A program made the position numbers and the translations under genes. A stretch of 46,442 bases of DNA from the IMG/VR virus record IMGVR_UViG_3300050821_003330, positions 1 to 46,442 of that record, one strand, 5' to 3'. Below, piece by piece: positions 10,893 through 27,581 of this stretch (position 1 is its first letter; each line of letters begins with the position of its first letter). The DNA comes from a virus. The notes under the pieces are model-generated. The model was not told the DNA's origin, did not search any database, and saw nothing but the letters and a program-made list of their open reading frames with translations.

Positions 10893-11585
10893 TTATCCTA
10901 CAGCTCCCGGAAAGCCGGGTTGGTATTGTTGAAAAAGATTCGTTTTATTATTGAGAATATAAGGTGTTGCAGAAGGAACCGCTTCTCCGGCGGCTGCTCC
11001 TAAACTACCTCCCAAAGCACCCAAAGAACCGGTAATTCCACCAGCGGCACTTAACAAAGACCCTATCCCTGTCCATGTATCCCCGGCATGTTGTGCGGCT
11101 TGCAACTGGTAAGGAAGGAGACTTGCTGTATTCGCGGCGTTCGTGGACAAAACCCCAAGCTGGCCCTTCGCTTGTAAGTCCTTAATCTGCTGCTGTAAAT
11201 CCCACTCAGAGTAGCCCTGTAACTTAGCCTGTGCTGCGTTTGAAAGGTTCGTCCTTCCTTGGTCAACAGTTAAGGCCGAGGAATCACTTTGAAATGGTGC
11301 CTGTTTCCCCGCTGAGTTTAAATCCAAAGATTGCAGCCTTTGATAATCCGACATAGCCTTTTGCTGTCCCTGTGCCATTTCCGTTTGTGCCGTTTGAGGG
11401 GAAGACCCTTGCAAACTCTGTTCAAAGATATTCCTCCCCTGTTTTGCGTAACCTTGTTGTTGGGCAAGTTCATTCTCAACGGCCGAATTCATCGCACTTT
11501 GGGACTTCTGCGTCCCCACGACTTCGACTCCTGCCCCTGCCGCACTTAAGGCCGCCCCAGCTAAAAGTAGAATTGGATAGGGCAT
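10893..11585 (-). CDS. Putative internal virion protein with N-terminal hydrophobic helix, 230 aa
   Basis: The N-terminus MPYPILLLAGAALSAAGAGV forms one hydrophobic, Gly/Ala-rich helix. It is followed by Gln/Ala-rich helical sequence and a Gly-rich stretch near residues 180-210. Podoviral ejection proteins that enter the cell envelope (T7 gp14-like) have this architecture, so an ejection role is plausible but not proven. The start at 11585 is supported by GGAGG eight bases upstream and by a TAATG overlap with the preceding gene. The in-frame ATG at 11600 would add five residues and lose this spacing. Confidence 0.7.
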   Translation of the reverse strand: MPYPILLLAGAALSAAGAGVEVVGTQKSQSAMNSAVENELAQQQGYAKQGRNIFEQSLQGSSPQTAQTEMAQGQQKAMSDYQRLQSLDLNSAGKQAPFQSDSSALTVDQGRTNLSNAAQAKLQGYSEWDLQQQIKDLQAKGQLGVLSTNAANTASLLPYQLQAAQHAGDTWTGIGSLLSAAGGITGSLGALGGSLGAAAGEAVPSATPYILNNKTNLFQQYQPGFPGAVG

Positions 11586-12091
11586 TATTTTAACCTCCAA
11601 ATATCTTTCAACGCAAGGGTTTTGTCAAGGTCATTGGGACTCACGGTATCCGCATCCTCTCTATAGTTCACGATGAAAAGGTCTCCATGACGGGCAAATC
11701 GAGTACCGTATTCAGAGCAAAACATCTTATCCGGGTCACCTTTCTTCACCGCATACGTAAAGCACAAAAGACCCTTCCAATCATACGCTTGGCCCTTTGC
11801 AACATTCTCGAACCATGAAAAGGCTTGGTCATAATTCCAGTTGTGTTTTGAACGACGAACGGAGATTAACTGTTTCGTCCTTAGAGGATAAAGGTTTACA
11901 CCGATACCGTTTCTGCTCGCCGTGGACATTCTCCTTCCATCATTATCGAAACCGTGATAAATCTCCACATGCACAGCGTAGCCAAAAGCCGTTCTTCTCA
12001 TTGTTAACTGCGACCCAATATCCCACCAACCCTTTGACCCGTAGAATAAAAAATCCCCCTGCTGTAACTCGTTTATATCAAATGGTTTCAT
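11585..12091 (-). CDS. Permuted NlpC/P60 (YiiX-like) papain-fold hydrolase, putative virion-associated wall enzyme
   Basis: A 168-residue protein with the circularly permuted NlpC/P60 pattern. GDFLFYG at residues 12-18 comes first, then a catalytic-type His in VHVEIYHG (His41), and the nucleophile-type Cys in KMFCSEYG (about Cys124) late in the sequence. This order (His before Cys) is that of the YiiX/LRAT-like permuted papain fold, whose members act as amidases or peptidases. It has no signal peptide. It lies among ejection-protein genes, so a role in opening the cell wall during DNA entry, or as endolysin, is likely; the substrate is unknown. It starts one base after the preceding stop codon. 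Confidence 0.75.
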   Translation of the reverse strand: MKPFDINELQQGDFLFYGSKGWWDIGSQLTMRRTAFGYAVHVEIYHGFDNDGRRMSTASRNGIGVNLYPLRTKQLISVRRSKHNWNYDQAFSWFENVAKGQAYDWKGLLCFTYAVKKGDPDKMFCSEYGTRFARHGDLFIVNYREDADTVSPNDLDKTLALKDIWRLK

Positions 12092-12092
12092 A

Positions 12093-12860
12093 TTACATTA
12101 TTGACCCGGCTGCGCCAAGACTCGCCCCCACAGCGGGACTCCCACCAACTGGGGTTGGAAAATAACCAGGCTGTCCCACTTGTGCATAATTATTTGCGAG
12201 GTTCTTTGTTAGATAGGTAGAGGCAAAATTACTAAACAATGACCCCAAAGCAGGCCACGCTGTGGGTTGAGAGAACTGAGAGGCCGCAGCCAACGCCTGT
12301 GTCGCTTGTTGTTGAGGGTCGGACGAAACCTGCAACTGATTTAAAAGTGTATTCTCTTCTTGTGCAACATTCGACTGAAGTTGCTGTGCCTGTTGCCGAC
12401 CGGTATTGGCGATGTTTTGGAGCTGGTTTGTTTTCTCGTTATTAAGTGCTCGATTAATGGTGTTCGCTGCCCCGGACGTAGACAAACCACTTCGAGCCAA
12501 ATCATACGTGGTTTGTGCCAGCGTATTTTGATACTGTTGTTGGAACTGGGGCAAGGCGTAGTTTTCATAATCTTGTTGTCTCTGGTCGTAGAAAGCTTGA
12601 TTAAACCCACCGGAGGAAGTTTGCCCTGTGTAAAACTGAGTGCCGGGGGCATACGCTCCGGGGTCGGTTACAACGGCACCGTATTGGTCGTAAAGAGGTT
12701 TTCCCGCAGCGGCGGGGTTTGTGTTAGACACAGGATTAACCCCTTGTCCTCCCGCGAAGATAGACGTAATATCCGACTGCCCCTGCGCGACCGCACTTTG
12801 TTGTGCCTGCTGCGCTGCTGTTACATCATCCGCTGAACCGCTTGAGCCGTAAAGTCCCAT
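12093..12860 (-). CDS. Putative virion protein, Gln/Ala-rich, 255 aa
   Basis: Not recognised with confidence. A flexible Ser/Asp/Gln-rich N-terminus (MGLYGSSGSADDVTAAQQ) leads into a Tyr/Gln-rich region with FYDQRQQDYENYALPQFQQQ and a long helical Gln-rich segment. The C-terminus is Gly/Ala-rich. It is like small core or tail-associated proteins found after the nozzle gene in podoviruses. The ATG is preceded by AAGGAATAAATAAC, a leader shared with the exported-protein gene at 23066, which supports the start. Confidence 0.65.
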   Translation of the reverse strand: MGLYGSSGSADDVTAAQQAQQSAVAQGQSDITSIFAGGQGVNPVSNTNPAAAGKPLYDQYGAVVTDPGAYAPGTQFYTGQTSSGGFNQAFYDQRQQDYENYALPQFQQQYQNTLAQTTYDLARSGLSTSGAANTINRALNNEKTNQLQNIANTGRQQAQQLQSNVAQEENTLLNQLQVSSDPQQQATQALAAASQFSQPTAWPALGSLFSNFASTYLTKNLANNYAQVGQPGYFPTPVGGSPAVGASLGAAGSIM

Positions 12861-12865
12861 GTTAT

Positions 12866-13318
12866 TTATTCCTTATCAATATCACGTTGTTTTGAAAGTT
12901 CAACCATCGCGTCCCAGCCTAGGTGCAATCCTGCTACATGAACCAAAAGGTCAATATCCGCACACCTCGTGGCCGGGGCATGTTGCTTCCGCGCCTCGTC
13001 TTTTTGAATATGGTCACCCCCTATTTGACGAGCAATAGCGGACGAGAAAAGGGCTTTCAGCTCACTTGCATATTGTTTCACGAAAGGGTTGAGAAGTAAG
13101 GAGCACGTGAAATCGTGCAACGCCTTCCACGCCTGTTCCTTCCTTTCCTCATCCCAGTCGGAGTTGTCCATTAAATCGTCAAAGACGTGCTCGAAGTTCC
13201 AAAATGACACAAGAAATATATAGACCGGTAGGTTGCCGTTAGCCACCTTCTCGAAGGTTTTGTAAGCATCCGGTTGCTTTCTAACCTCTTCGTCTCGCTG
13301 CATGTAATCTTTTAACAT
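12866..13318 (-). CDS. Hypothetical protein in tail gene cluster, 150 aa
   Basis: An acidic, mostly helical protein with Trp/Phe-rich patches (YIFLVSFWNFEHVFDDLMD), no signal peptide and no recognised domain. The start at 13318 gives a TAATG overlap with the nozzle gene and has AGAAAGG six bases upstream; an upstream ATG at 13348 would overlap that gene by 31 bases. Context suggests a tail or assembly factor. Confidence 0.65.
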   Translation of the reverse strand: MLKDYMQRDEEVRKQPDAYKTFEKVANGNLPVYIFLVSFWNFEHVFDDLMDNSDWDEERKEQAWKALHDFTCSLLLNPFVKQYASELKALFSSAIARQIGGDHIQKDEARKQHAPATRCADIDLLVHVAGLHLGWDAMVELSKQRDIDKE

Positions 13319-14526
13319 TATCGCCTTTCTTGGACATCGTAGGAACAATTAAACCCCGAAAACACAGCCGCCGACGAATCTGTAGTGACCGCCGAAAACG
13401 AAACATGCGACCCCCTTTTGGAAAAAGACTTCCTCGAAGAATCATACGTATTCGGATTCGCCAACCCCGTTGAATCAAATATAAGGGTAGAGGTTCCCTG
13501 CATCGGGTCGGTAGAAACGGAAAATTGCCAACTCCCGGTCATCGCCATTCCCACCGACCTAAACTGCTTCATGTTCCCCGGCGTTTTAAGGGGTAAATAG
13601 CTCGTCTGCCAAGAGGCGACGCAGTTGTCGAAGGTGTTATTACTAGCTCCACCGTAGAGATAGAAAGCGTCGCTGGTGCGGCAATAGACCTGTCCTTGAA
13701 ACGTGAAAAAGAACTGAGGTGTGAAGGTCGTTTGAACCCCCCCGTTCGCATACGTGGGAGAATACGTTGACCATGCAATAATTTTAGACCCTGGGAAGTA
13801 TGAAAGGACATAGATAGTGTTGGTTAAGAAAAGCCAGTAACGATTTGCCGAGGGGTCGACGGTGGAGGGGGAGGAAGCAATTTGTGCGGGGGTTAGACCC
13901 AAAAGAGCTTGTTGGATTATAGCGTCAATAGGGGAACCTATATCCACAATAAAACCATTCAAAGACGAATCCCGGACTCGCAAAGACCTTATCCCCGTGT
14001 CATAAAGGAAGAAAACGTCCAAATCCCCAATAGATTGCACAGAAAACGGTGCGTTCGTCCCGATATTCTCAAGCGTCTGAACAAGGGTGAACTGTGTCGG
14101 GTCTGGGTCGGTGAGCCATATTTGTATATTGTCACGAGCGAAGACAGCCAACCTGCCCTGATACGCAGCGAACGCTTGGGTTTGCTGTGGGGAAGCGTAG
14201 AAATCCGTAAGGTTAATGAACCCATTCCCAAACCCATTTGGGTCATTAAACACCGTCGGGACGTTGATAGCCGAAAAATACCATGTGGTTCCAGCAACAA
14301 AATGTATACGGTTCCCAAAGGTCGTAACGTAAGAGGGTTGAATCCCTGTAACCTCCCCTGAGCCTACCGTCGTCTCTACCCCTGTTTGACTATCTGTAAA
14401 GACCACATTATAAAGGTCTCCCGTTGTCCAAGAACCGCCGAAGGTCAAAAGCGTATCCTCACCCGACCCCGCGCCGGCTGTAACTCCCCCTTGCATTGTT
14501 ACACATGATGGTAAAAGGGTGGCCAT
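13318..14526 (-). CDS. Tail nozzle (T7 gp12-like), C-terminal part
   Basis: A 402-residue protein matching the middle and C-terminal part of podoviral tail tubular protein B. Characteristic segments are YQGRLAVFARDNIQIW, the LVQTLENIGTNAP block, DVFFLYDTGIRSLRVRD and the VYCRTSDAFYLYGG region. The N-terminal signature of the family is missing from this frame but is present at the start of the preceding gene (14528-16102), so the nozzle is encoded by two consecutive reading frames. One base separates the upstream stop from this ATG, and no Shine-Dalgarno sequence is visible, so translation probably depends on coupling or a frameshift. Confidence 0.8.
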   Translation of the reverse strand: MATLLPSCVTMQGGVTAGAGSGEDTLLTFGGSWTTGDLYNVVFTDSQTGVETTVGSGEVTGIQPSYVTTFGNRIHFVAGTTWYFSAINVPTVFNDPNGFGNGFINLTDFYASPQQTQAFAAYQGRLAVFARDNIQIWLTDPDPTQFTLVQTLENIGTNAPFSVQSIGDLDVFFLYDTGIRSLRVRDSSLNGFIVDIGSPIDAIIQQALLGLTPAQIASSPSTVDPSANRYWLFLTNTIYVLSYFPGSKIIAWSTYSPTYANGGVQTTFTPQFFFTFQGQVYCRTSDAFYLYGGASNNTFDNCVASWQTSYLPLKTPGNMKQFRSVGMAMTGSWQFSVSTDPMQGTSTLIFDSTGLANPNTYDSSRKSFSKRGSHVSFSAVTTDSSAAVFSGFNCSYDVQERR

Positions 14527-14527
14527 T

Positions 14528-16102
14528 TTATGATTGGGTTACGGAAGCAATCACCGCCACTGGGGTGGAAACAATCTGTGACCCCATTGCGTCGGTTACG
14601 GTGCAGACGAAGTTGGTAGTTATCGTGTTATTATTAAACAAACCCGCCTTCGACTGGAAGGTCGTTGAGGAAGCGTTCGGCGTGTTGGCATAAATATTCC
14701 CACCCGTCCCCGGAGGAACCTCTGCCCATAGGAACGAATAAGGACCAATTCCTCCCGTGATGGTCACCGTTACAAGCTGACTCGTGCCGAAAGAAACATG
14801 CCTATTCCCACCGGAGAATGTGACATTATTCACCACGGCCACTGTTGTGGGCGTGACGCTAATCCCTAAGGATTGTGCCGTGCCGAAGATAACCTCCCCA
14901 CCCGTTCCGACATTAACGATTACATTCACCGGGGCGTCGGTGGACGTTGTTATTAACTTGGAAATATAAATAACCTGCCCGGAGGAAAATGCATTATACC
15001 CAGACGTGCCGGAAAACGCATTTATATTGGTAACGATATCCGCGCATGTTTGTGAAACAGACGTATTCCAATTCACCGCCCCTGATTGGATAGACACCCC
15101 GTTGACAAGAACCGTCGTCCCTGTGGTGAATTGTGTCGACCCCTGAACCAATCCAAGGGTAAAAGATATCACTCCGATAATCACATTCCCCGCGGCCGTG
15201 ACCTGAACAGCACTCCCATTAGGTGTTGCCCCGTTCGCGGTCGTCCCTGAGATTATCACCGTATTCCCATTCGCGACGGCTGAATAGTGACTCGTCCCCG
15301 AATTAGCATTAATGTTCGTCGCGACCAGAGCGGCTGTATTTGTATTCGACGTCGTCCAATCAATCGAGGCGGTTAGCAACTGTGTGGACGCCACCTTCAC
15401 TGAGGTAATCTTATTCGTCCCCGGATTAGAAGACCCTGCTTGTATTGCAAATTGACCCACAGAGGCAACGGCCGTGGATGGAGGGATGCCAGTGTTCTCC
15501 ACTAAGGACGTCAAAGTCCCCGAAGCCGAGACCTTTGTGATATTTGTAACATACTGCGTGCCGGGCTTACTGACCACGTCTTGCGTAGAATTCCCATTGT
15601 CCGTGGACGTGTAAGGCACCGTCCCATTAATCAACGCAGCAAGGGCGGTGTTGATTTTCTCCGTGGTATTCTGTGAAGCAAGCACATCCCCGGCGATGAA
15701 ATCTTCAACCAAGGTGCCGTTGTAAAACGCATACACATTATTATCGGCAAACTTCGCCACCACAAAAGCGTTCCCACCGAAGACGGTTTGGCAAATAACC
15801 GCTGTCATAGTGGTGGAACCATCGGGATGTTGTAGCCTTTGATACGTAACCCCGGCAGGCAAAGCTAGATTCAAAGAGCCTTGCGCCACTGACCCAAAGA
15901 TTGTAAGGCCCGCAAGGGTGCCTAAACCCCCAAAAGAATTCGTAGGCAACGCGGTGCGAACAAACGCCTTCCTTTTCTCAATCTCACCCCCCTGATTTAC
16001 ATGACAATTATTCGCGGCTTCCAAAGTGCCGACGACGGACGTCAACTCACTTTTGCGAGAATCTAATCCATACTTAAAATTCTCTAAAACAAAATCAGGC
16101 AT
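14528..16102 (-). CDS. Tail nozzle N-terminal part with inserted repeats and C-terminal Ig-like domain
   Basis: A 524-residue protein. The N-terminus carries the nozzle signature (NFKYGLDSRKSELTSVVGTL, CHVNQGGEIEKRKAFV). Two tandem copies of a beta-rich tail module follow: SIDWTTSNTNTAALVATNIN and a second beginning GAVNWNTSVSQTCADIVTNI, each followed by SGTS.Y.A. The last ~120 residues form an Ig-like domain (GIGPYSFLWAEV, TTNFVCTVTDAMG). The frame then stops and the rest of the nozzle follows in another frame. I chose the ATG at 16102, one base after the upstream TGA; an ATG at 16129 would add nine residues overlapping the upstream gene. Ig-like domains on virions usually mediate weak surface binding. 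Confidence 0.8.
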   Translation of the reverse strand: MPDFVLENFKYGLDSRKSELTSVVGTLEAANNCHVNQGGEIEKRKAFVRTALPTNSFGGLGTLAGLTIFGSVAQGSLNLALPAGVTYQRLQHPDGSTTMTAVICQTVFGGNAFVVAKFADNNVYAFYNGTLVEDFIAGDVLASQNTTEKINTALAALINGTVPYTSTDNGNSTQDVVSKPGTQYVTNITKVSASGTLTSLVENTGIPPSTAVASVGQFAIQAGSSNPGTNKITSVKVASTQLLTASIDWTTSNTNTAALVATNINANSGTSHYSAVANGNTVIISGTTANGATPNGSAVQVTAAGNVIIGVISFTLGLVQGSTQFTTGTTVLVNGVSIQSGAVNWNTSVSQTCADIVTNINAFSGTSGYNAFSSGQVIYISKLITTSTDAPVNVIVNVGTGGEVIFGTAQSLGISVTPTTVAVVNNVTFSGGNRHVSFGTSQLVTVTITGGIGPYSFLWAEVPPGTGGNIYANTPNASSTTFQSKAGLFNNNTITTNFVCTVTDAMGSQIVSTPVAVIASVTQS

Positions 16103-16103
16103 A

Positions 16104-16556
16104 TCAAAATTGCCCACTTGTAAAACCACTTACCGTATTAGACGCTAAGACTTTATAAAAGGTCTGTGCCCCTAGCTTCGCCACGGTAAACCATTGGTTT
16201 GTAACCACCCCTAACCTTGTCCAATTTACAAAATTCGTCGAGGCAAGGACTATGAAAACCACATTATTCGTCACGCCTTTGTAATCCCAACCGTAAGAGA
16301 TTAAAGGGGAGTAATTAAACGTGGGAAGATTCGTGAAACACACACTCTTTCCAAACTTATTCACCCCACAAACAACAACATTCGTCCCTTCTATGTTTGT
16401 GGTCCAATTAGGACTAACCACAACCTCGGCTTTTGTTACCCTCACCGAAGGTAAGGGAGGCAAAGAAAGGGTTACTGGCTTACGCGTCGCAACACTCCTA
16501 CACGATAGTATCGCCACCACAAGCATGAGAAACGGAATAAGCCAGTAACGTTTCAT
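16104..16556 (-). CDS. Putative lipoprotein with a discoidin-like/FYRV-type C-terminal signature
   Basis: A 150-residue protein with a lipoprotein signal (MKRYWLIPFLMLVVAILSC; cleavage before Cys19), predicting lipid anchoring in the cell envelope. The C-terminal half contains VLASTNFVNWTRLGVVTN and AQTFYKV, a pattern very common in secreted Verrucomicrobiota proteins. It overlaps the outer-membrane-like gene upstream by one base (TAATG). It could alter the infected cell surface, for example to exclude other phages. An outer-spanin role is possible but the protein is larger than usual. Function inferred. Confidence 0.7.
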   Translation of the reverse strand: MKRYWLIPFLMLVVAILSCRSVATRKPVTLSLPPLPSVRVTKAEVVVSPNWTTNIEGTNVVVCGVNKFGKSVCFTNLPTFNYSPLISYGWDYKGVTNNVVFIVLASTNFVNWTRLGVVTNQWFTVAKLGAQTFYKVLASNTVSGFTSGQF

Positions 16557-17095
16557 TAAAAGTTGAACCCGATGGAAAAACCATAATTAGGAGTTAATCT
16601 TCCCTGCCCCTTAAAATACACCGGAAGACCCAAGTTAATCCCTGCGAAGGTGTGTTGGGTCATGGATTTTTCAAACTTCAAATCAGGACGAACATACCCT
16701 GCTTTGGCGTCATAATCATAACCACCATTCAATGAAAGGGTGGTTTTCGTATCATACAACGCATAAGCATAGGCCGCTCCCCCGTCTAGTTTTGACAACG
16801 ACCCAAGCGTAGTGTCGTTATAAAATGTAACCACACCATGAAGGGATTGATTCGTGGCGACGGAGAAAAGGTGAGCGTCCACATGGAAGACAGCTAAAAG
16901 CTGCGCGTTGTTCCAATTCTCCGTCCCGGTGGTAATCGCCACGTGGTCATAACCGTCCTGAAAGGTCATGAGGTTTGTATTGAATGACGTGAAGTAGCCC
17001 TGCGCCGTTGTGAAGAACGAAGGGATTGAGTTTGTTTGCGCTTGCGTGCTTACACCCGCGAGGATTAGACTACCAAGAACAAGGAGTTTTTTCAT
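16556..17095 (-). CDS. Exported outer-membrane beta-barrel-like protein
   Basis: A 179-residue protein with a clear Sec signal peptide (MKKLLVLGSLILAGVSTQAQ; cleavage near residue 20). The mature part alternates polar and hydrophobic residues like beta-barrel strands and ends with FSIGFNF, a C-terminal aromatic typical of outer-membrane barrels. An outer-membrane protein encoded inside a virion arm is unusual; surface remodelling or superinfection exclusion would fit. Palindrome copy 9 lies within the gene. It shares an ATGA overlap with the holin-like gene upstream. Confidence 0.65.
   Translation of the reverse strand: MKKLLVLGSLILAGVSTQAQTNSIPSFFTTAQGYFTSFNTNLMTFQDGYDHVAITTGTENWNNAQLLAVFHVDAHLFSVATNQSLHGVVTFYNDTTLGSLSKLDGGAAYAYALYDTKTTLSLNGGYDYDAKAGYVRPDLKFEKSMTQHTFAGINLGLPVYFKGQGRLTPNYGFSIGFNF
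16812..16836 (-). repeat. 25-bp dispersed near-palindrome, copy 9 (inside a coding region)
   Basis: Reads GTGTCGTTAT-AAAAT-GTAACCACAC on the plus strand. The minus-strand reading frame across it is offset by one base from the frame used at copies 2, 4 and 5, giving VVTFYNDTT. It is the most diverged copy but keeps GT, GTTAY, RTAAC and AC. Confidence 0.75.
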
Positions 17096-17370
17096 TTGTT
17101 TTCTGTTGGTTGAGTTCCATCCGAAGTAGTAACGGATGGTGTTTTGACCGTTGACTGGACTACAGATGTTTTCGTAGTCACTGTCGTGTCAAATTGAATA
17201 GAATCCTCTGGATGGGTTTTCAAATAAAGCATCGCTGCCTGACCTACATTAAAGCAAGTCAATACCCCCACTTGTTTCCACGTCAACCCGATAGTTACTT
17301 GAATCATGGCTTGCATGACTCCAGAAAACATCGCAATCAACAATCCCATTTTCCATTGTTTCCATTTCAT
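17092..17370 (-). CDS. Holin-like small membrane protein, 92 aa
   Basis: Two predicted membrane segments (LLIAMFSGVMQAMIQVTIGL and VGVLTCFNVGQAAMLYL) follow a short positively charged N-terminus (MKWKQWK). The hydrophilic Thr/Ser-rich C-terminal tail is about 45 residues long. Size and topology resemble class II holins, and the gene lies near other envelope-directed proteins. I recognise no specific holin family, so this is a topology-based call. It overlaps the next gene as ATGA. Confidence 0.5.
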   Translation of the reverse strand: MKWKQWKMGLLIAMFSGVMQAMIQVTIGLTWKQVGVLTCFNVGQAAMLYLKTHPEDSIQFDTTVTTKTSVVQSTVKTPSVTTSDGTQPTENK

Positions 17371-17383
17371 ATTGTTTTAAGAG

Positions 17384-17983
17384 TTAAGGCCGGGCATAAA
17401 CCTTTGCTTGCCAGTTTGTTAAGGTAATAGGTGAGAAAGCAAATGAGGAAGGCGTAACCATTTCTACCTGAAACGCCCCTGACTGGATTAAATAAACATT
17501 TGTCCCATCTGCAATAGTGTTAAAAGCAGGCCCAAGCAAAGCACCACCTGAGTTATACCCCAAGGCATAAGCACAGTTAAATTCTTGCCCAACCACAAAA
17601 TTATTATCGTTTGTAATACAAACAAGCACTCCCTCTACTATTGAAGGAGTGTTAGTAAAACCATGCGCTTGTTGGATTATAGTTGCGTTGTGAGCTAAGT
17701 TACCATTAGTCGAAATAAATAAGGCAAGGGCATTTGTGTTCGTTCCCGCTACGGCATTGATTATTGTAAACCCACTTCCAGCCTGTAAGTTAACATTAGA
17801 CCCCGCAACCAACTTCCCGTTCGGGTTAATCCCTAACACCCCTTGCCATTGTTGTTCATTCGGAAGGGTTAAAAGGTGACGAGAAAAATCACTTGGTTGT
17901 GAGCCAACATTACCCGGAGAAGGGTAAGGTTGACCAAGTCCTACGCAGGGCAAAAGCAAAAGTGCTAAAATTCCCCACTTCAT
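17384..17983 (-). CDS. Exported protein sharing an N-terminal module with the tail fibre
   Basis: A 199-residue protein beginning with a Sec signal peptide (MKWGILALLLLPCVGLGQ). After it comes RHLLTLPNEQQWQGVLGI, closely matching RTLLPLPTQAAWQAALGI after the signal peptide of the fibre gene at 18254-20152. The remainder is Asn/Gly/Thr-rich beta-type sequence ending in an Ile/Thr-rich strand. It may be a truncated fibre relative or a fibre partner. It shares an ATGA overlap with the gene upstream. Function unknown. Confidence 0.65.
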   Translation of the reverse strand: MKWGILALLLLPCVGLGQPYPSPGNVGSQPSDFSRHLLTLPNEQQWQGVLGINPNGKLVAGSNVNLQAGSGFTIINAVAGTNTNALALFISTNGNLAHNATIIQQAHGFTNTPSIVEGVLVCITNDNNFVVGQEFNCAYALGYNSGGALLGPAFNTIADGTNVYLIQSGAFQVEMVTPSSFAFSPITLTNWQAKVYARP

Positions 17984-18207
17984 TTCACATTAATTGTTTG
18001 ATTAGGTTGGTTCTTTTCCAAATTTAATGTCGTGGCGAGAACGGTAATACTTCTCGTCATTTCAAGGTTCGACGCCTCAAGCGTCTTCAACCTATCCTCA
18101 TGATTATTCACCTGAAAATGCAAAGACGCATACATGTAGATAATCATTACAAGGGAAGAACAAACCGAAAGAATGTTCCCAACAGAGATTTCTTTTTTGA
18201 GTTGCAT
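17980..18207 (-). CDS. Small membrane protein with coiled coil (spanin- or holin-like)
   Basis: A 75-residue protein with one membrane segment (VGNILSVCSSLVMIIYMYAS) near the N-terminus and a hydrophilic helix with heptad character (VNNHEDRLKTLEASNLEMTR). This layout fits an inner-membrane spanin or a small type of holin. Together with the two-membrane-segment protein at 17092 and the lipoprotein at 16104 it could form the lysis set, but the genes are separated by exported proteins, which is not the usual order. Confidence 0.55.
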   Translation of the reverse strand: MQLKKEISVGNILSVCSSLVMIIYMYASLHFQVNNHEDRLKTLEASNLEMTRSITVLATTLNLEKNQPNQTINVK

Positions 18208-18253
18208 GTTAGAATGGATTCTTCGCTAGGCCTGAGGATGGTAAAGGCATAAG

Positions 18254-20152
18254 TTATTCTCCTGAATTCCAAACTAAAAACCGTATTTCGACTTCGCTCG
18301 TCGCAGCGGCATTCAGAAAAAAGGAACAGCTTCCCGTTGCGGGAACCGCCTGAACCGCCGTCGCGGTTGAATCGTGAGTTGCAATAACCGGATAAACAAT
18401 AGAATTGGTCGTTATAAAACTGTCAGTCAAAACAACACTACTCCCGGCAGCAGCGATTCGGATGCTTCCAGACGGAAAATTAATTGTCTTATTTCCTGTG
18501 GTTCCGGGTGCAACCAAGGAATAAGGACTCTTGAAACGATAGCTCGCCACCTTGCTCCATGCCTCATTATTCGTTGAATAAGTTTGGGAACTGGCGGATG
18601 TAGGAGTTCCTATAACTCCAAGAAAAAGGGAGTTATCAGTTGCAAAACGAGGATACATTCCGGTGTTATCCACGAAGAACTCACCTGTCCCGCTGGATTG
18701 AAACAGCATCCCCCCGGAGCCGTCCGTGTTCCACCCGCTTTGTTGCACATCGAAGAATCCATTGGTAGAACCTGTTGCAGACGTGACGAATTGACCGGCC
18801 AATACGCTCGCAGCATTCAATGGCACCTGTCCTACCTCTGCTGAATCAAGTCTCAGATACTCTAACTTTCCGTTGGATTTGATAATTGTCCCATTTGTTC
18901 CACCCACTACAGTTCCATTGGCGAATGTAAACCCAGACGCGCCAAGGGCGTTGATGTAACCAGAACGACTCCCGGTATTCATCCTGAATAACAATGCGGT
19001 GTCAGCATTTCGAGCGTAGATGTTCGTTCCATTTTTAAGAGTGTTTGCAAATGGAAATATGTTGGTTCCAGAAAGGTCGGGGATGCCTATGCTTCCAAGG
19101 TCGGCCCCGGCACCGGCGATGACCAGCATCGGTTGATTATTGTGTCCAAAATCCATCTCGGCAAAAGGAGAAACAAACAATAGTGCCCCCGGAAAATCAA
19201 CGTAAGGTGCCCCGGTTGGAACGCCGACAATCTGAGGAACATCGGCAATCGGATAACCATTAGGTGTTTGATTCAAAGTCGAATCGGGCACCGCGCTCAG
19301 TATGTCGAAAACAAACCCGGCACCCGAAGAATTGGTATATCCGCTGATGGAGATGGATTCGTCACCACCGGAAACACTGCTTGCATCGAACACGAAATTG
19401 GGGCCGGGAAACACGCCATTGGCGAAATATGTGTTGGCCAGCCTGACCGAACCGGAGAAGTTATTAGAGCCTGACATTGCATTATTGTCAGTTAGCCCTG
19501 CCGTTCCTAATGCAGTTCTTGCCGCACTCGCCGTCGTCTGGCCGGTGCCGCCCTGCGCGATTGTAACTGGAAGAGTAACATTAGTTGCAGCTATTCCTCC
19601 ATTAGTAACAAGCCCTTGTTGATACACACTAGTGTAAATATTATAAATATCATTACCTCCATCTCCAGAAAGGGTAACAATTAAATTAACACTAGTCCCC
19701 CCTTTCGCTTCTATTCCTACTACAGTCAGAGGAAAGGCATTAATTCCACTCGGGGTGACCGAAGACAAAATCGTAAAGTTTTTTGACAGTGGTTGAATTG
19801 TAGTGTATTGTAAAGTGGCAGCGATAGTCCCGGTAGAGTTTTGTGGTATATCAATTTGACCACTTACAACATACGTTCCATTAGACGGAGCGGTGAAAAG
19901 GGTATTAGTTGAACTAGTAGTTAATCCGTTTGTATTAAAATTAACCAACGGCACAAGAACGGAGTTAGTAGATATAGCCCCTAACCCACCACCGCCCCCA
20001 CCAGTTATTCCTAAAGCGGCTTGCCATGCCGCTTGCGTTGGTAAAGGCAAAAGCGTCCGTGTATACGGTGTCGTCGACGGAACAACCGGCTGCCCTTGCG
20101 TAGTGCTGTTATAAAATATAACCGCACTTAGGAGAAGAATTAGTTTTTTCAT
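18254..20152 (-). CDS. Tail fibre or spike protein with an N-terminal signal peptide
   Basis: A 632-residue protein starting MKKLILLLSAVIFYNSTTQGQ, a Sec signal peptide, followed by the short module RTLLPLPTQAAWQAALGI. A fibre linker (GGTGQTTASAARTALGT) occurs near residue 207, then beta-rich sequence. The C-terminal region (GSIRIAAAGSSVVLTDSFIT, then SEVEIRFLVWN) is a knob-like module common in phage fibres and cyanobacterial or Verrucomicrobiota surface proteins. A signal peptide on a fibre is unusual; it may instead be a secreted decoy or host-surface protein. Palindrome copy 3 lies within the signal-peptide codons. Confidence 0.7.
   Translation of the reverse strand: MKKLILLLSAVIFYNSTTQGQPVVPSTTPYTRTLLPLPTQAAWQAALGITGGGGGGLGAISTNSVLVPLVNFNTNGLTTSSTNTLFTAPSNGTYVVSGQIDIPQNSTGTIAATLQYTTIQPLSKNFTILSSVTPSGINAFPLTVVGIEAKGGTSVNLIVTLSGDGGNDIYNIYTSVYQQGLVTNGGIAATNVTLPVTIAQGGTGQTTASAARTALGTAGLTDNNAMSGSNNFSGSVRLANTYFANGVFPGPNFVFDASSVSGGDESISISGYTNSSGAGFVFDILSAVPDSTLNQTPNGYPIADVPQIVGVPTGAPYVDFPGALLFVSPFAEMDFGHNNQPMLVIAGAGADLGSIGIPDLSGTNIFPFANTLKNGTNIYARNADTALLFRMNTGSRSGYINALGASGFTFANGTVVGGTNGTIIKSNGKLEYLRLDSAEVGQVPLNAASVLAGQFVTSATGSTNGFFDVQQSGWNTDGSGGMLFQSSGTGEFFVDNTGMYPRFATDNSLFLGVIGTPTSASSQTYSTNNEAWSKVASYRFKSPYSLVAPGTTGNKTINFPSGSIRIAAAGSSVVLTDSFITTNSIVYPVIATHDSTATAVQAVPATGSCSFFLNAAATSEVEIRFLVWNSGE
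20103..20127 (-). repeat. 25-bp dispersed near-palindrome, copy 3 (inside a coding region)
   Basis: Reads GTGCTGTTAT-AAAAT-ATAACCGCAC on the plus strand. It starts 25 bases into the fibre-like gene and encodes AVIFYNST of the signal peptide. The stronger half-site is on the minus strand. Confidence 0.85.
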
Positions 20153-20871
20153 GGTGCTGTAATATAATCCGCGAAGATTAAGTTGCTACCGGAAGTTCCT
20201 ATCGTTAGGGTATTAGGAGTGGACGACACAACAAGAATACACCCGTTATGATACACCTGCGACGAATCCTTCTGAAAAACATCCCGTCCTTGTTTCCCAA
20301 ACTGATAAGTAGGGGAAGTGCCATTACTCGCTGTCGACGTAGGCGACTGCCAATCTGGAACCGACCCATTGGTTGGGGGTGTGCCCGAGGCAAAGGCCAT
20401 TAACCAACAAGCCCCCGCTTCCCCGTTTTGAAACGAGCAATCAACCAACTTACCCGGCGTTCCTGCATCCGCCCATATTTGGAGGTAATTCGCTCCACCT
20501 GTGGAAGCGGCCGCGGTCACAGGAATCTTCGCAAGCGTCCTTGATTCCTCATATTCACATTGAATATCTCCAGTATCTCCCCCTGTGATTATCGTCAAGG
20601 TATCCTTTGTCGTGGACAAGACCAAAGTCAACCCTGTAAAACAAGGCAACCCATCCGACACATGTTCATTGAATTCAAAGTTCGCCTGCGCGACCCATGA
20701 CTTCATCGGGGTAGCTCCATTCGCCGGAACGGTCGCGGAGTCGAATAACATAATATATGCATCCGTGCTTCCTGCCGTTTCATAAAAACCATTCGCCCGG
20801 TAGAACAAGGCAGGAACGGTTGACACTATTAAACTTTTGGCCGTTGGGGCCGTGCGTGCTGTTCTTATCAT
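20149..20871 (-). CDS. Putative virion surface protein with an internal domain duplication
   Basis: A 240-residue protein of unknown family. Two halves align: one ends LVLSTTKDTLTI near residue 95 and the other LVVSSTPNTLTI near residue 225. Both contain a Phe/Ala strand, a 'TPxxxSVPxW' or 'ATPMKSW' loop, and a Cys/Gly-rich turn before the final strand. It looks like a tandem beta-sandwich repeat. It lies between the tail adaptor and the fibre, so a tail or decoration role is probable. It has no signal peptide, and it overlaps the fibre gene as ATGA. Confidence 0.65.
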   Translation of the reverse strand: MIRTARTAPTAKSLIVSTVPALFYRANGFYETAGSTDAYIMLFDSATVPANGATPMKSWVAQANFEFNEHVSDGLPCFTGLTLVLSTTKDTLTIITGGDTGDIQCEYEESRTLAKIPVTAAASTGGANYLQIWADAGTPGKLVDCSFQNGEAGACWLMAFASGTPPTNGSVPDWQSPTSTASNGTSPTYQFGKQGRDVFQKDSSQVYHNGCILVVSSTPNTLTIGTSGSNLIFADYITAP

Positions 20872-20875
20872 ATTT

Positions 20876-21913
20876 TTAACCTAAAAGGACACGACGCGTA
20901 GAACGCGTCTTTGTTTCTGACGTTTCCCCATTAACCCACACCGATGGGGCTGATGGGCCTGCAAGACGTAAAAGGGCCAACCTCTGCGAGAATTGTTGTG
21001 CGACCATCGAGGCGTCGGAGGATTCGCGACGGGCCAACTCCTGTGCCGCGACACCTTTGATTAGAAGGATGTCGTCCAAGTCTGCTTGGTCTATGTCCGC
21101 GGCGAGTGGATTTAGGGAGCGTTCACCGCGAAAACGGATGGTTTGTGGGGTTTGAGGGATGGGCCAGAGTTCAAAAATAGACGCAGGGAGGCTTGAAGAG
21201 GCTAACGGAACGGTTAAGAATGAATCACTAAGACTATCTCCAAAAGCACCACTTATCGGTCTTTGTGCAGCAAAGAAAAAAGCACTCCCTCCTACTTTTG
21301 TTCTATAAATGTTAACTGTAGTGCAAGGAATAGTAACATTCGTTCCTTGCACCACTACAACTGGGGCAGGACCAAATCCGTTAATCAACGCACCTTGATT
21401 GGATAAAGTTAGACTAACGGGAGGACTTGCTAATGTTTCTCCATACTCTGTAACAAAAGTATATACCCAAGAATAAGCCCCGGTAAGAACACCGGCTGCA
21501 ATATTAGCAGCCGGAGCAACGGAAGGAGCAGGAACGTCTTCCTGCCCCACAATCAACCACTTCATCGTCGGGTCGGATGTTTGACCTATCAACGAGTTGA
21601 ACATGTTATAGTCATCCTCCGTAATACCATAATCCATGTCTGTCCATATGAGATTCCAGTTGTTTTTGACCGAGTGGGGACGGTCATAATTCAACAAAGG
21701 AAGTAAATAAAACCGCTGACCACCTACCGTCACAACATCCTGCCGGTCTCTCAAAAAGGGCCAATCATACGCGGAGGCCAATTCGACCTGCTTGTTGTAA
21801 AGAAGCTGGTCAAGCCTCGACGCGTCGGCGGCTGCTTGACCTCCGGTCGTGTCATCCCCAAGCTCGGCCTGTAACATCGCTCGAAGCGTTCCTAATTGTG
21901 TTCCTCTTGGCAT
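20876..21913 (-). CDS. Head-tail adaptor (T7 gp11 / tail tubular protein A-like) with inserted beta domain
   Basis: A 345-residue protein. The N-terminus (LRAMLQAELGDDT, LDQLLYNKQVELASAYDWPF) and the C-terminal block (IRFRGERSLNPLAADIDQAD, then LLIKGVAAQELARRE) match the helical adaptor fold of podoviral tail tubular protein A, which joins portal to nozzle. Between about residues 130 and 235 lies an inserted Fn3/Ig-type domain (SWVYTFVTEYGETLASPPV, TTVNIYRTKVGG). Such insertions are common in adaptor proteins of environmental phages. The gene sits downstream of the capsid and upstream of the nozzle genes, as expected. Confidence 0.8.
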   Translation of the reverse strand: MPRGTQLGTLRAMLQAELGDDTTGGQAAADASRLDQLLYNKQVELASAYDWPFLRDRQDVVTVGGQRFYLLPLLNYDRPHSVKNNWNLIWTDMDYGITEDDYNMFNSLIGQTSDPTMKWLIVGQEDVPAPSVAPAANIAAGVLTGAYSWVYTFVTEYGETLASPPVSLTLSNQGALINGFGPAPVVVVQGTNVTIPCTTVNIYRTKVGGSAFFFAAQRPISGAFGDSLSDSFLTVPLASSSLPASIFELWPIPQTPQTIRFRGERSLNPLAADIDQADLDDILLIKGVAAQELARRESSDASMVAQQFSQRLALLRLAGPSAPSVWVNGETSETKTRSTRRVLLG

Positions 21914-21975
21914 TGGAAATTGGCCCCGTTAGTAACTTCCGGGGCGTTGAATAAAGGGCGGCTGGTCACCCACGA

Positions 21976-22365
21976 TTACTTCTTCACCTCCTCTTTCTTT
22001 TCTTCCTTCACACACGTCGGCCCTGCAATCTCCGCGACCTCCGCGAAGGTTTGAGGCAACTTCGGTGAGGCACCGGGGAAGCAGGCTTCAACCTTCTTCT
22101 TCCCATACGTGCGGGACAAACGCTGAATCTCTTCTGAGTCGGAACGTTTCTTCCCCTTCACCTCTGTGAAGAGTCCTTCCTCCGACGACCATGAAAGGGC
22201 AAGAGCCTCACCCTTTACATCCAACGCCGTTAGGGGAAACCCCCCAACATTATTGAAATGACCGTGGTCTTTATGTGACAAGATAACAACCTCCGCCGGG
22301 GTTACTCCCGACTTCGGTATTGTATCCATCTTGTTGATTTTCATTACTATGTTCGCTGTTTCCAT
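21976..22365 (-). CDS. Hypothetical protein between capsid and tail genes, 129 aa
   Basis: Not recognised. Residues 20-60 look like a small beta domain (PAEVVILSHKDHGHFNNVGG, ALDVKGEALALSW). The C-terminus is highly charged and ends KEEKKEEVKK. There is no signal peptide. By position it could be a head-completion or scaffold-associated factor. Confidence 0.65.
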   Translation of the reverse strand: METANIVMKINKMDTIPKSGVTPAEVVILSHKDHGHFNNVGGFPLTALDVKGEALALSWSSEEGLFTEVKGKKRSDSEEIQRLSRTYGKKKVEACFPGASPKLPQTFAEVAEIAGPTCVKEEKKEEVKK

Positions 22366-22376
22366 TTTCTTATCCT

Positions 22377-23066
22377 TTACGGAGCATAGCCCGTGACTGT
22401 TACCCTATTGATAGTATTACCCGTGGTGTTTGCGTTCGTAGTGCTAGCTGCCGAAGCAAACCTTATCCCCTTCGCACCTTGCACGAATGCAGTGGGAAGG
22501 TTCGTCGAGGCCATGATTATATTCGTCCCACTAACGGTAACGTTAAACGTGAACTGATTTGTCGTCGTGGTATCCGCGTTCGTCCCCCACAAAACCTTTT
22601 CAAGGGTGAACGTAATTACCTGTGCATTCGACGTAACCGTCGCAGCATACAACCCTGGAAAGTTCGTTCCCGGATTTGCGTTTTGATTATCCCCCGGTAA
22701 ATAACCCGGATTGTTCAACATAACCGACACCGTTAAAGGTGCCACATCCGCGTTGGCGTCCGCCCAGATATCAACGTCATGAGACGCTGCACCATAGAAA
22801 AGGACGTTCGACACAGTCGTCCCCGAAGGCTGCACGATAGTGTTAGTGTAGTAAGGGGTGAAGGATTGAATATTCGACGTTCCTATGGAGTTTAGGAAAA
22901 TCGTATTCGTGTTAAATGCGGTGTAAGTTCCACCGTTAGTGAGAAATAAATTCCCACTTCCTGATAGAAGCTGCAACGCCATATGTTTCGCTCCCCCAGC
23001 ACCTTGGGCAAAGACACCCGTGTAGGAGAGACCTAATGCCAGAACAAGTGAAAAGAGTCTTTTCAT
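22377..23066 (-). CDS. Exported Thr/Asn-rich protein immediately after the capsid gene
   Basis: A 229-residue protein with a Sec signal peptide (MKRLFSLVLALGLSYTGVFA, cleavage near residue 20). The mature part is Thr/Asn/Gly-rich and beta-like, with a repeated 'TNT/TNF' style seen in secreted proteins of Verrucomicrobiota. Its position right after the major capsid gene would suit a head decoration protein, but a signal peptide argues for export from the infected cell. The leader AAAGGAATAAATAC before the ATG matches that of the gene at 12860. Function unknown. Confidence 0.65.
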   Translation of the reverse strand: MKRLFSLVLALGLSYTGVFAQGAGGAKHMALQLLSGSGNLFLTNGGTYTAFNTNTIFLNSIGTSNIQSFTPYYTNTIVQPSGTTVSNVLFYGAASHDVDIWADANADVAPLTVSVMLNNPGYLPGDNQNANPGTNFPGLYAATVTSNAQVITFTLEKVLWGTNADTTTTNQFTFNVTVSGTNIIMASTNLPTAFVQGAKGIRFASAASTTNANTTGNTINRVTVTGYAP

Positions 23067-23081
23067 GTATTTATTCCTTTC

Positions 23082-24182
23082 TTAGTTCACTTCGTAGATA
23101 GCCGACGTATTCAACTGGTCAGCCACCAACGCACCGGTGAAGGTCATGCTCTTGAAGAACACGAAGTAGTTGTAAGGACGTTCAGGGGTTAGCAACTTAT
23201 TATCCTCCCCCTCCATTGGACGCAACTTGATATGGTCAGTATCAATGAAGTATGCACGCTTCGCTAAACCGAGGTCGTCCAAGGTGGGGTCATACTCAAA
23301 CTCCAACTTTTTCTTCCCCCGTCGACGGTCGATAGTGGATGCACCGTAGTCGGAAGACATTGAAATCTTCGCGATACCAGCGTCTGTTTTGCCACTATTG
23401 ACAAACCCTTCCTGTGTGTATACCCCTTTGTCCTGCACTTCCAACTCAAGCGCGTCGATAAACTTCGACCCGCACAACGCCTTCGTCGGCCCTGCGCCGT
23501 AACGCATAAGCTGACGCATCTCAGAGCGAAGGGTCTTCGTCAACGTCTGATTCTCTGCCGACGCGGTGATTGCTGAGTTGTTCCCTGAGAACAAACCACG
23601 ATGCCTCCACCATACATTCGCCCCCCTATCCAACCCACCGGTCGACCCTGTTGAGGGAGTCTCGGTGAGAATCGAACGAAGGCCGGGAATCTGCTTCGGG
23701 TCTTGTGAACCATCGCCCCACAACATTTGGTTTTGCAGGCGTGCCCAAGATTCCGCCCAGTCATCCAGACGGTTCTTAAACAACGAGTCAATGATTCGCA
23801 CAACCGCCGCGTTCTTATGCTCCGACATACGGTTGTTATCCGTAATCGTGATACCGTCCTTCTTCAACTCCGTCCAAGAAACCTCCAACCCAAAGTGGGT
23901 TTCCTTCCACGGATACGCAACTCGCAAGAGCGAGTTCGCCTGATTAAAGCTCAACTGGTCATCTTCCGAATACCCTTGAAGAGGGTTGGAGTCTGACATG
24001 TAACTCCCCTGCACCGGGAGAGACACATTATCCTTACCGGCAGGGAAGTCCTCCATTTTCTCACGTAGTATGCGAAGCAGGGGTTTGTCCTGAATCGTCT
24101 GCGCAAGCGCACCTTTCTTGACGTAAAACGTCAATATCGCATTAGCGATATCATTTGCCACTGATAAACCGAGTGTTGCCAT
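23082..24182 (-). CDS. Major capsid protein
   Basis: A 366-residue protein in the expected place after portal and scaffold. The start (MATLGLSVANDIANAILTFY) and the blocks ETHFGLEVSWTELKKDGITI, SWARLQNQMLWGDGSQDPKQ and RPYNYFVFFKSMTFTGALVA are typical of HK97-fold capsids in podoviruses that use a separate scaffold. No protease gene is seen, consistent with assembly by a separate scaffolding protein rather than capsid maturation by cleavage. AGGAAAAAGG precedes the ATG. Confidence 0.85.
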   Translation of the reverse strand: MATLGLSVANDIANAILTFYVKKGALAQTIQDKPLLRILREKMEDFPAGKDNVSLPVQGSYMSDSNPLQGYSEDDQLSFNQANSLLRVAYPWKETHFGLEVSWTELKKDGITITDNNRMSEHKNAAVVRIIDSLFKNRLDDWAESWARLQNQMLWGDGSQDPKQIPGLRSILTETPSTGSTGGLDRGANVWWRHRGLFSGNNSAITASAENQTLTKTLRSEMRQLMRYGAGPTKALCGSKFIDALELEVQDKGVYTQEGFVNSGKTDAGIAKISMSSDYGASTIDRRRGKKKLEFEYDPTLDDLGLAKRAYFIDTDHIKLRPMEGEDNKLLTPERPYNYFVFFKSMTFTGALVADQLNTSAIYEVN

Positions 24183-27428: not shown

Positions 27429-27581
27429 TTACTTATGAATCGCGGCACCAAAAACCCGCCACCCCAAAAGGGTGAGAAGTATGAAAAGTCCAAGATTGGT
27501 AGGCCACGCGGCGCGGTTGGTATACAAACCAACAACCAACCAAATCAACATTATAATCCAGAAGCACAAGGCGATTGACAT
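27429..27581 (-). CDS. Small two-helix membrane protein, 50 aa
   Basis: A short frame filling the gap between the large terminase and portal genes. It starts at the ATG at 27581, with a purine-rich AAAGAGAAAGAAAAT leader, and ends TAA at 27429. Two hydrophobic segments (LCFWIIMLIWLVVGLY and LGLFILLTLLGW) are separated by TNRAAWPTN. Such a protein could be a holin or another membrane effector; nothing identifies it further. The compact packing and leader support it as a real gene. Confidence 0.6.
   Translation of the reverse strand: MSIALCFWIIMLIWLVVGLYTNRAAWPTNLGLFILLTLLGWRVFGAAIHK

Follow-up and report, generated by a model that had tools for sequence, protein, structure and literature searches.

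The window analysed here is the whole of a 46,442-base virus record in IMG/VR (IMGVR_UViG_3300050821_003330), in which five minus-strand genes lying within the run of head and tail genes encode proteins with export signals. Comparison with related phages indicates that export of the proteins of this block is an inherited trait of one clade of uncultured tailed phages, judged by gene content to be of the short-tailed type, and that the large exported proteins are probably receptor- or glycan-binding. In our favoured reading, for which we see the case as evenly poised, these are receptor-binding and envelope proteins that are exported and either act on the surface of the cell or become attached to particles when it lyses.

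The initial annotation had assigned convincing signal peptides to the five genes, and both the signals, four of the Sec type and one of a lipoprotein, and the gene coordinates hold. The gene directly after the capsid gene encodes a 229-amino-acid (aa) protein, pm229 (22377–23066), with the Sec signal MKRLFSLVLALGLSYTGVFA followed by Q, while the 632-aa fibre-like protein fib632 (18254–20152) has the Sec signal MKKLILLLSAVIFYNSTTQG, also followed by Q. The 199-aa protein sp199 (17384–17983) and the 179-aa protein omp179 (16556–17095) have the signals MKWGILALLLLPCVGLG and MKKLLVLGSLILAGVSTQA, respectively, each followed by Q, and the lipoprotein lp150 (16104–16556) has the signal MKRYWLIPFLMLVVAILS followed by C, with the lipobox ILSC. 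The N-termini combine a basic n-region and a short hydrophobic core with an AXA-type site that is mostly followed by Q, lp150 having the lipobox instead.

Export was called with our own rule-based caller, calibrated on controls, which found 16/16 known E. coli signal peptides and, among 743 core proteins of relatives with virion or packaging functions, was positive for two, versus all five window genes. The background was 0.7–0.9% for random protein segments and 11% for the shuffled first 40 residues of real signal-peptide proteins. Among cultured phages, positives were Lom, Rz and RexB of lambda, the membrane-anchored Rz of P22, a lipoprotein of Flavobacterium phage 11b and a handful of further membrane proteins; not one fibre, tailspike or lectin was flagged in lambda, P22, crAss001, Flavobacterium 11b, EBPR podovirus 3, Microcystis phage Mae-Yong1326-1, Rhizobium phage RHph_N65 or Verrucomicrobia phage P8625. 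These controls rule out chance or composition as the source of the signals and, since the N-termini are also classical, the export observation for the five genes is confirmed; the proteins of the block very probably leave the cytoplasm by their predicted signals. The further suggestion that exported products are unusual among structural genes is borne out by the two positives among relatives' core proteins, and the trait is clade-wide. One more gene of the window, g240 (20149–20871), was flagged weakly and is treated as a false positive.

The hydrophobic N-termini might instead remain unprocessed and serve virion proteins as membrane anchors or for docking, as the caller also flags membrane-anchored proteins (lambda Rz and, weakly, the small holin-like protein hol92 of the window). 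This we consider most improbable, given the short hydrophobic core, the lysines of the n-region and the AXA-type sites with Q at +1 (19 cases), and docking peptides make no sense because lipobox and Tat (twin-arginine translocation) variants occupy the same slots. A second, cytoplasmic start codon, looked for by eye, is likewise unlikely, since fib632 has no nearby internal Met after its signal and the Met of pm229 is not conserved.

Regarding the distribution of the block, scans for the capsid protein turned up about 120 relatives among IMG/VR records and ten within bacterial genomes, and a maximum-likelihood capsid tree was built from 82 sequences. In this tree, the 14 loci that have exported genes all belong to a single clade of 16 members (support 100/100), of which the remaining two members are contigs ending at or just past the capsid gene, and a one-genome accident is ruled out by these relatives sharing the exported block. 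Within the block, the caller is positive for 74 of the clade's 125 genes of at least 100 aa, compared with 3/187 outside the block and 32/1217 genes outside the block in other loci. The gap between the tail tubular and stabilisation genes, where most of the block lies, is mostly 3–6 kb in the clade and near zero in nearly all other lineages with enough sequence, and the sister lineages have almost no signals. A 5.5-kb insertion at the same place in another lineage (L067) is free of signals; therefore insertion at that place does not by itself bring export. The nearest annotated phages, Mae-Yong1326-1 (capsid identity 38%) and RHph_N65 (35%), which are among the sisters of this clade, have the terminase, portal, scaffold, capsid, g129, tail tubular and stabilisation genes in the identical order to the window, but lack an exported block between the last two, the gap being 4747 bp in the window, 530 bp in Mae-Yong1326-1 (one HNH gene) and absent in RHph_N65.

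Most clade members have one to four large exported proteins, mutually dissimilar and often of 500–900 aa, and fibre, lectin or tailspike domains are clear in the relatives' proteins of the slot occupied by fib632. A Pfam domain survey of 45 exported proteins detected LamG_3 four times and BNR_2, a right-handed beta-helix and GH28 once each. In the fibre slot, the signal ahead of LamG_3 is of the Sec class in three loci (L003, L010 and L096) and a classic Tat signal (MKLSRRQFVK) in L019, and the fibre slot of L001 has the motif RRKFLGG, of the RRxFL type. As the same LamG domain stands behind Sec or Tat, export itself looks selected, and it is export, rather than the class of signal, that looks conserved in this slot. 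For an exported 521-aa protein of L015, the match was to minor tail proteins from phages of Arthrobacter and Microbacterium (E 2e-6). In their fibre motifs, their beta-helix, GH28 and LamG domains and the Arthrobacter phage match, the exported proteins of the clade resemble tail fibres, tailspikes and minor tail proteins; however, the cultured-phage fibres and tailspikes examined have no signal peptide, whereas the exported proteins of the window and of most clade members begin with one.

In the window, the exported proteins have no significant matches in the family libraries. The protein fib632 contains GGTGQTTASAARTALG, which we take to be a fibre-type motif, and its conserved C-terminal domain is common to L004, L140 and gp15 of EBPR podovirus 3. 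No family was matched by fib632, the fibre-like label being plausible from motifs and the shared C-terminal domain, and a match in the PDB to an MS2 coat protein construct was rejected as spurious (about 13 bits per repeat). No other, cytoplasmic receptor-binding candidate was recognised among the open reading frames (ORFs) of the window, and the exported proteins are for this reason the best candidates for that role. The non-exported g240 is translationally coupled to fib632 by a 4-bp overlap on the same strand; its family occurs in the exported clade only, at 16 loci, and g240 is a possible docking or virion partner.

Export of the post-capsid protein is conserved as well, with a signal peptide in 14/14 aligned homologues that are only 13–29% identical to pm229. 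The AlphaFold2 model of pm229 has an N-terminal helix and beta strands forming a predicted beta-sandwich, at moderate confidence (predicted local distance difference test, pLDDT, 62). The possibility that pm229 is a known head protein with an added signal was rejected, because its profile does not resemble those of the proteins that sister phages encode after the capsid (hhalign probability 0.1), and the gene after the capsid gene in RHph_N65 has no detectable kinship to it.

The smaller genes of the block form a cassette with fib632. The mature N-terminus of sp199, SDFSRHLLTLPNEQQWQGVLGI, is of fibre style, and a domain of sp199 is common to exported proteins of L140 (at 15224, E 3e-6) and L015 (at 13957, E 6e-5) by blastp. 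Direct scanning gave no relatives of omp179, which ends in F; its slot holds exported proteins with aromatic C-termini of 195 aa in L004 and 179 aa in L147, and omp179 is a plausible candidate for a small outer-membrane barrel. The slot of lp150 has a similar lipoprotein in L147 and weakly similar ones in L140 and L004, and candidate roles for lp150 are those of a lysis or o-spanin-like protein or a surface lipoprotein. Two further minus-strand genes lie among these. The small holin-like membrane protein hol92 (17092–17370) has homologues at the same cassette position in L004 (63%), L140 (44%) and L147, and tm75 (17980–18207), not called exported, has an N-terminal membrane helix and a coiled coil and is a candidate inner-membrane lysis protein with a homologue in L004 and weak PHROG matches to an Rz-like spanin (E=0.0058) and a holin (E=0.005).

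In L147, a member of the window's clade, the order is that of the window: a signal-peptide protein after the capsid, tail tubular gene, g240, signal-peptide fibre, holin, 179-aa signal-peptide protein, lipoprotein and stabilisation gene. The shared order of the holin-like, exported barrel-like and lipoprotein genes in the window and L147, with L004 similar, and the weak spanin and holin matches of tm75 would suit an exported set that is mainly an elaborate lysis module, made of a spanin-like lipoprotein, an outer-membrane disruptor and a holin, with the fibre-like proteins carried along; this would leave unexplained both pm229 beside the capsid gene and the exported lectin and GH28 fibres, and we regard it as very unlikely. 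The pair of tm75 and lp150 would fit the Rz/Rz1 spanins in topology, with a coiled-coil protein anchored by its N-terminus, putatively in the inner membrane, and a small, putatively outer-membrane lipoprotein, both close to a holin-like protein, but differs in that lp150 has an extra C-terminal domain, the genes are not nested and there is no significant family match.

L140 has a capsid protein of a different family (phrog_1328) and yet the same exported fibre (40%) and the holin-like protein, with lipoproteins in that region; the exported cassette therefore seems to move between phages. The 127-aa gene preceding the fibre in L140 has no detectable kinship to g240. Also seen in L140 were a hub-like 902-aa protein with a signal peptide and an uncertain start codon (11597–14305) and two fibre-style proteins with signal peptides and a GYTFxPGExPTT motif (14302–15237 and 15224–16162). 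Two clade members, L147 (6274–6708) and L019 (14580–15011), have genes for response-regulator-like proteins (LxVDDDxAD) within the exported block.

Regarding the role of the exported proteins, a possible course of events is that the clade gained the block inside the late virion operon and that its genes, which share one run of overlapping genes with the virion genes, would be expressed late together with them. The products would be exported by Sec or Tat, and the large ones would build up late in infection, either in the periplasm or on the surface of the cell. At lysis, for which lp150, tm75 and hol92 would form the lysis set, the exported proteins may join the released virions or may occupy and trim surface glycans. 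That they are physically part of the mature virion is a possibility to which we lean a little less than to its contrary, and a more specific version, in which receptor-binding proteins are secreted via Sec or Tat and particles receive their last parts only outside the cytoplasm, in the periplasm or once the cell has lysed, with assembly thereby divided between two compartments, is put forward tentatively.

A serious competitor, if a tentative one, is that the exported proteins do not belong to the virion and are instead surface proteins encoded by the phage, acting in superinfection exclusion, receptor masking or glycan trimming or as decoys, as if Lom or T5 Llp had been enlarged into a block. 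The clear export signals agree with this, as do the lectin and glycan-active domains, which suit surface binding, and the presence of lipoprotein and barrel-like products in the same block. Lambda Lom likewise has an export signal and an expected outer-membrane location, and its gene adjoins tail genes; Bor and T5 Llp are further exported phage surface proteins. The clade differs from Lom, Bor and Llp in having a conserved multi-gene block with large fibre, lectin and beta-helix proteins and a post-capsid protein. The large dissimilar proteins of most members resemble receptor-binding proteins, and neither this, the minor-tail match of L015 nor the lack of another recognised receptor-binding candidate in the window is readily accommodated by surface proteins.

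Several observations weigh against our favoured reading. Since the virions of tailed phages are put together in the cytoplasm, fibres that have been exported could not be added before lysis. We know of no precedent for exported fibres joining virions, and exported tail fibres were not reported by title or abstract in the open-access literature searched. The receptor-binding roles are proposed from motifs and domains, the AlphaFold model of fib632 is uninformative (pLDDT 31) and the fold matches of pm229 are weak only (lectin, carbohydrate-binding module or jelly-roll). There are also exceptions within the clade: the fibre-slot protein of L126 (13497–14417) has no signal, and L035 and L036 lack the block, having retained the exported post-capsid protein. 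Joining particles at lysis is favoured only slightly over staying on the host surface.

A Verrucomicrobiota host had also been proposed and is not established. The relatives found in bacterial genomes are mostly in Alphaproteobacteria, with others in a Myxococcota metagenome-assembled genome (MAG), Vibrio and an unclassified bacterial MAG and a weak match in Bacteroidia, and those placed in the capsid tree all fall outside the exported clade; no host-linked locus was detected inside the clade among these genome-located relatives, which did not cover Verrucomicrobiota genomes. The sequence signature on which the proposal drew, ASTNFVNWT...FYKV, belongs to the C-terminal STNFVNW...FYKV domain of lp150, with a counterpart in L147, whose lipoprotein shares an ST...W...FY.V domain; its link to Verrucomicrobiota is putative. 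Thr-Asn (TN) dipeptides are enriched in the exported mature proteins (observed/expected 2.6, versus 1.06 in the clade core proteins and 0.93 in P8625), which fits the supposed secreted-protein style but singles out no one phylum. The cultured P8625 has, like the window's clade, tail fibre and ConA-like lectin genes in its tail region; unlike the clade, it has no TN bias, and the SignalP analysis by its authors (PMC4642752) gave no signal peptide for any of its proteins; verrucophages therefore do not have exported fibres as a general trait.

The core virion module surrounding the block spans about 29.7 to about 5 kb on the minus strand and comprises terminase, portal, scaffold, capsid, tail-tubular-type, stabilisation-type and internal virion genes. 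The major capsid protein, the basis of the clade tree, is encoded at 23082–24182 (phrog_9953, E=2e-32). The left border of the block is the tail-tubular-type gene (20876–21913), whose product is 42% identical over its conserved part to the tail tubular protein of Mae-Yong1326-1, and the right border is the gene of a stabilisation-type tail protein (14528–16129), 39% identical over 137 aa to the packaged DNA stabilization protein of that phage. The GTG start listed for the latter is probably too early; homologues begin at a Met matching MPDFVLENF, near 16102, and the stabilisation gene therefore need not overlap lp150. Elsewhere on this strand, a 50-aa membrane ORF at 27429–27581 (MSIALCFWIIMLIW...LLGWRVFGAAIHK) has a counterpart in ORF 9840–10133 of L140. 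Possible NlpC/P60 or YiiX-like proteins were seen by eye in the virion arm of the window (11585–12091, minus strand) and in L004 (6935–7381), where the candidate sits between the exported 195-aa protein and the lipoprotein.

From export signals kept across the clade, one of two things would follow: some component of the particle is attached beyond the cytoplasm, or these phages give over several kilobases of virion operon to proteins that coat or trim the host surface ahead of lysis. In both cases receptor-binding genes have to be recognised differently, as automated annotation could label them as host secreted proteins, and the exported block offers a testable marker of the clade and of the phages sharing the cassette.

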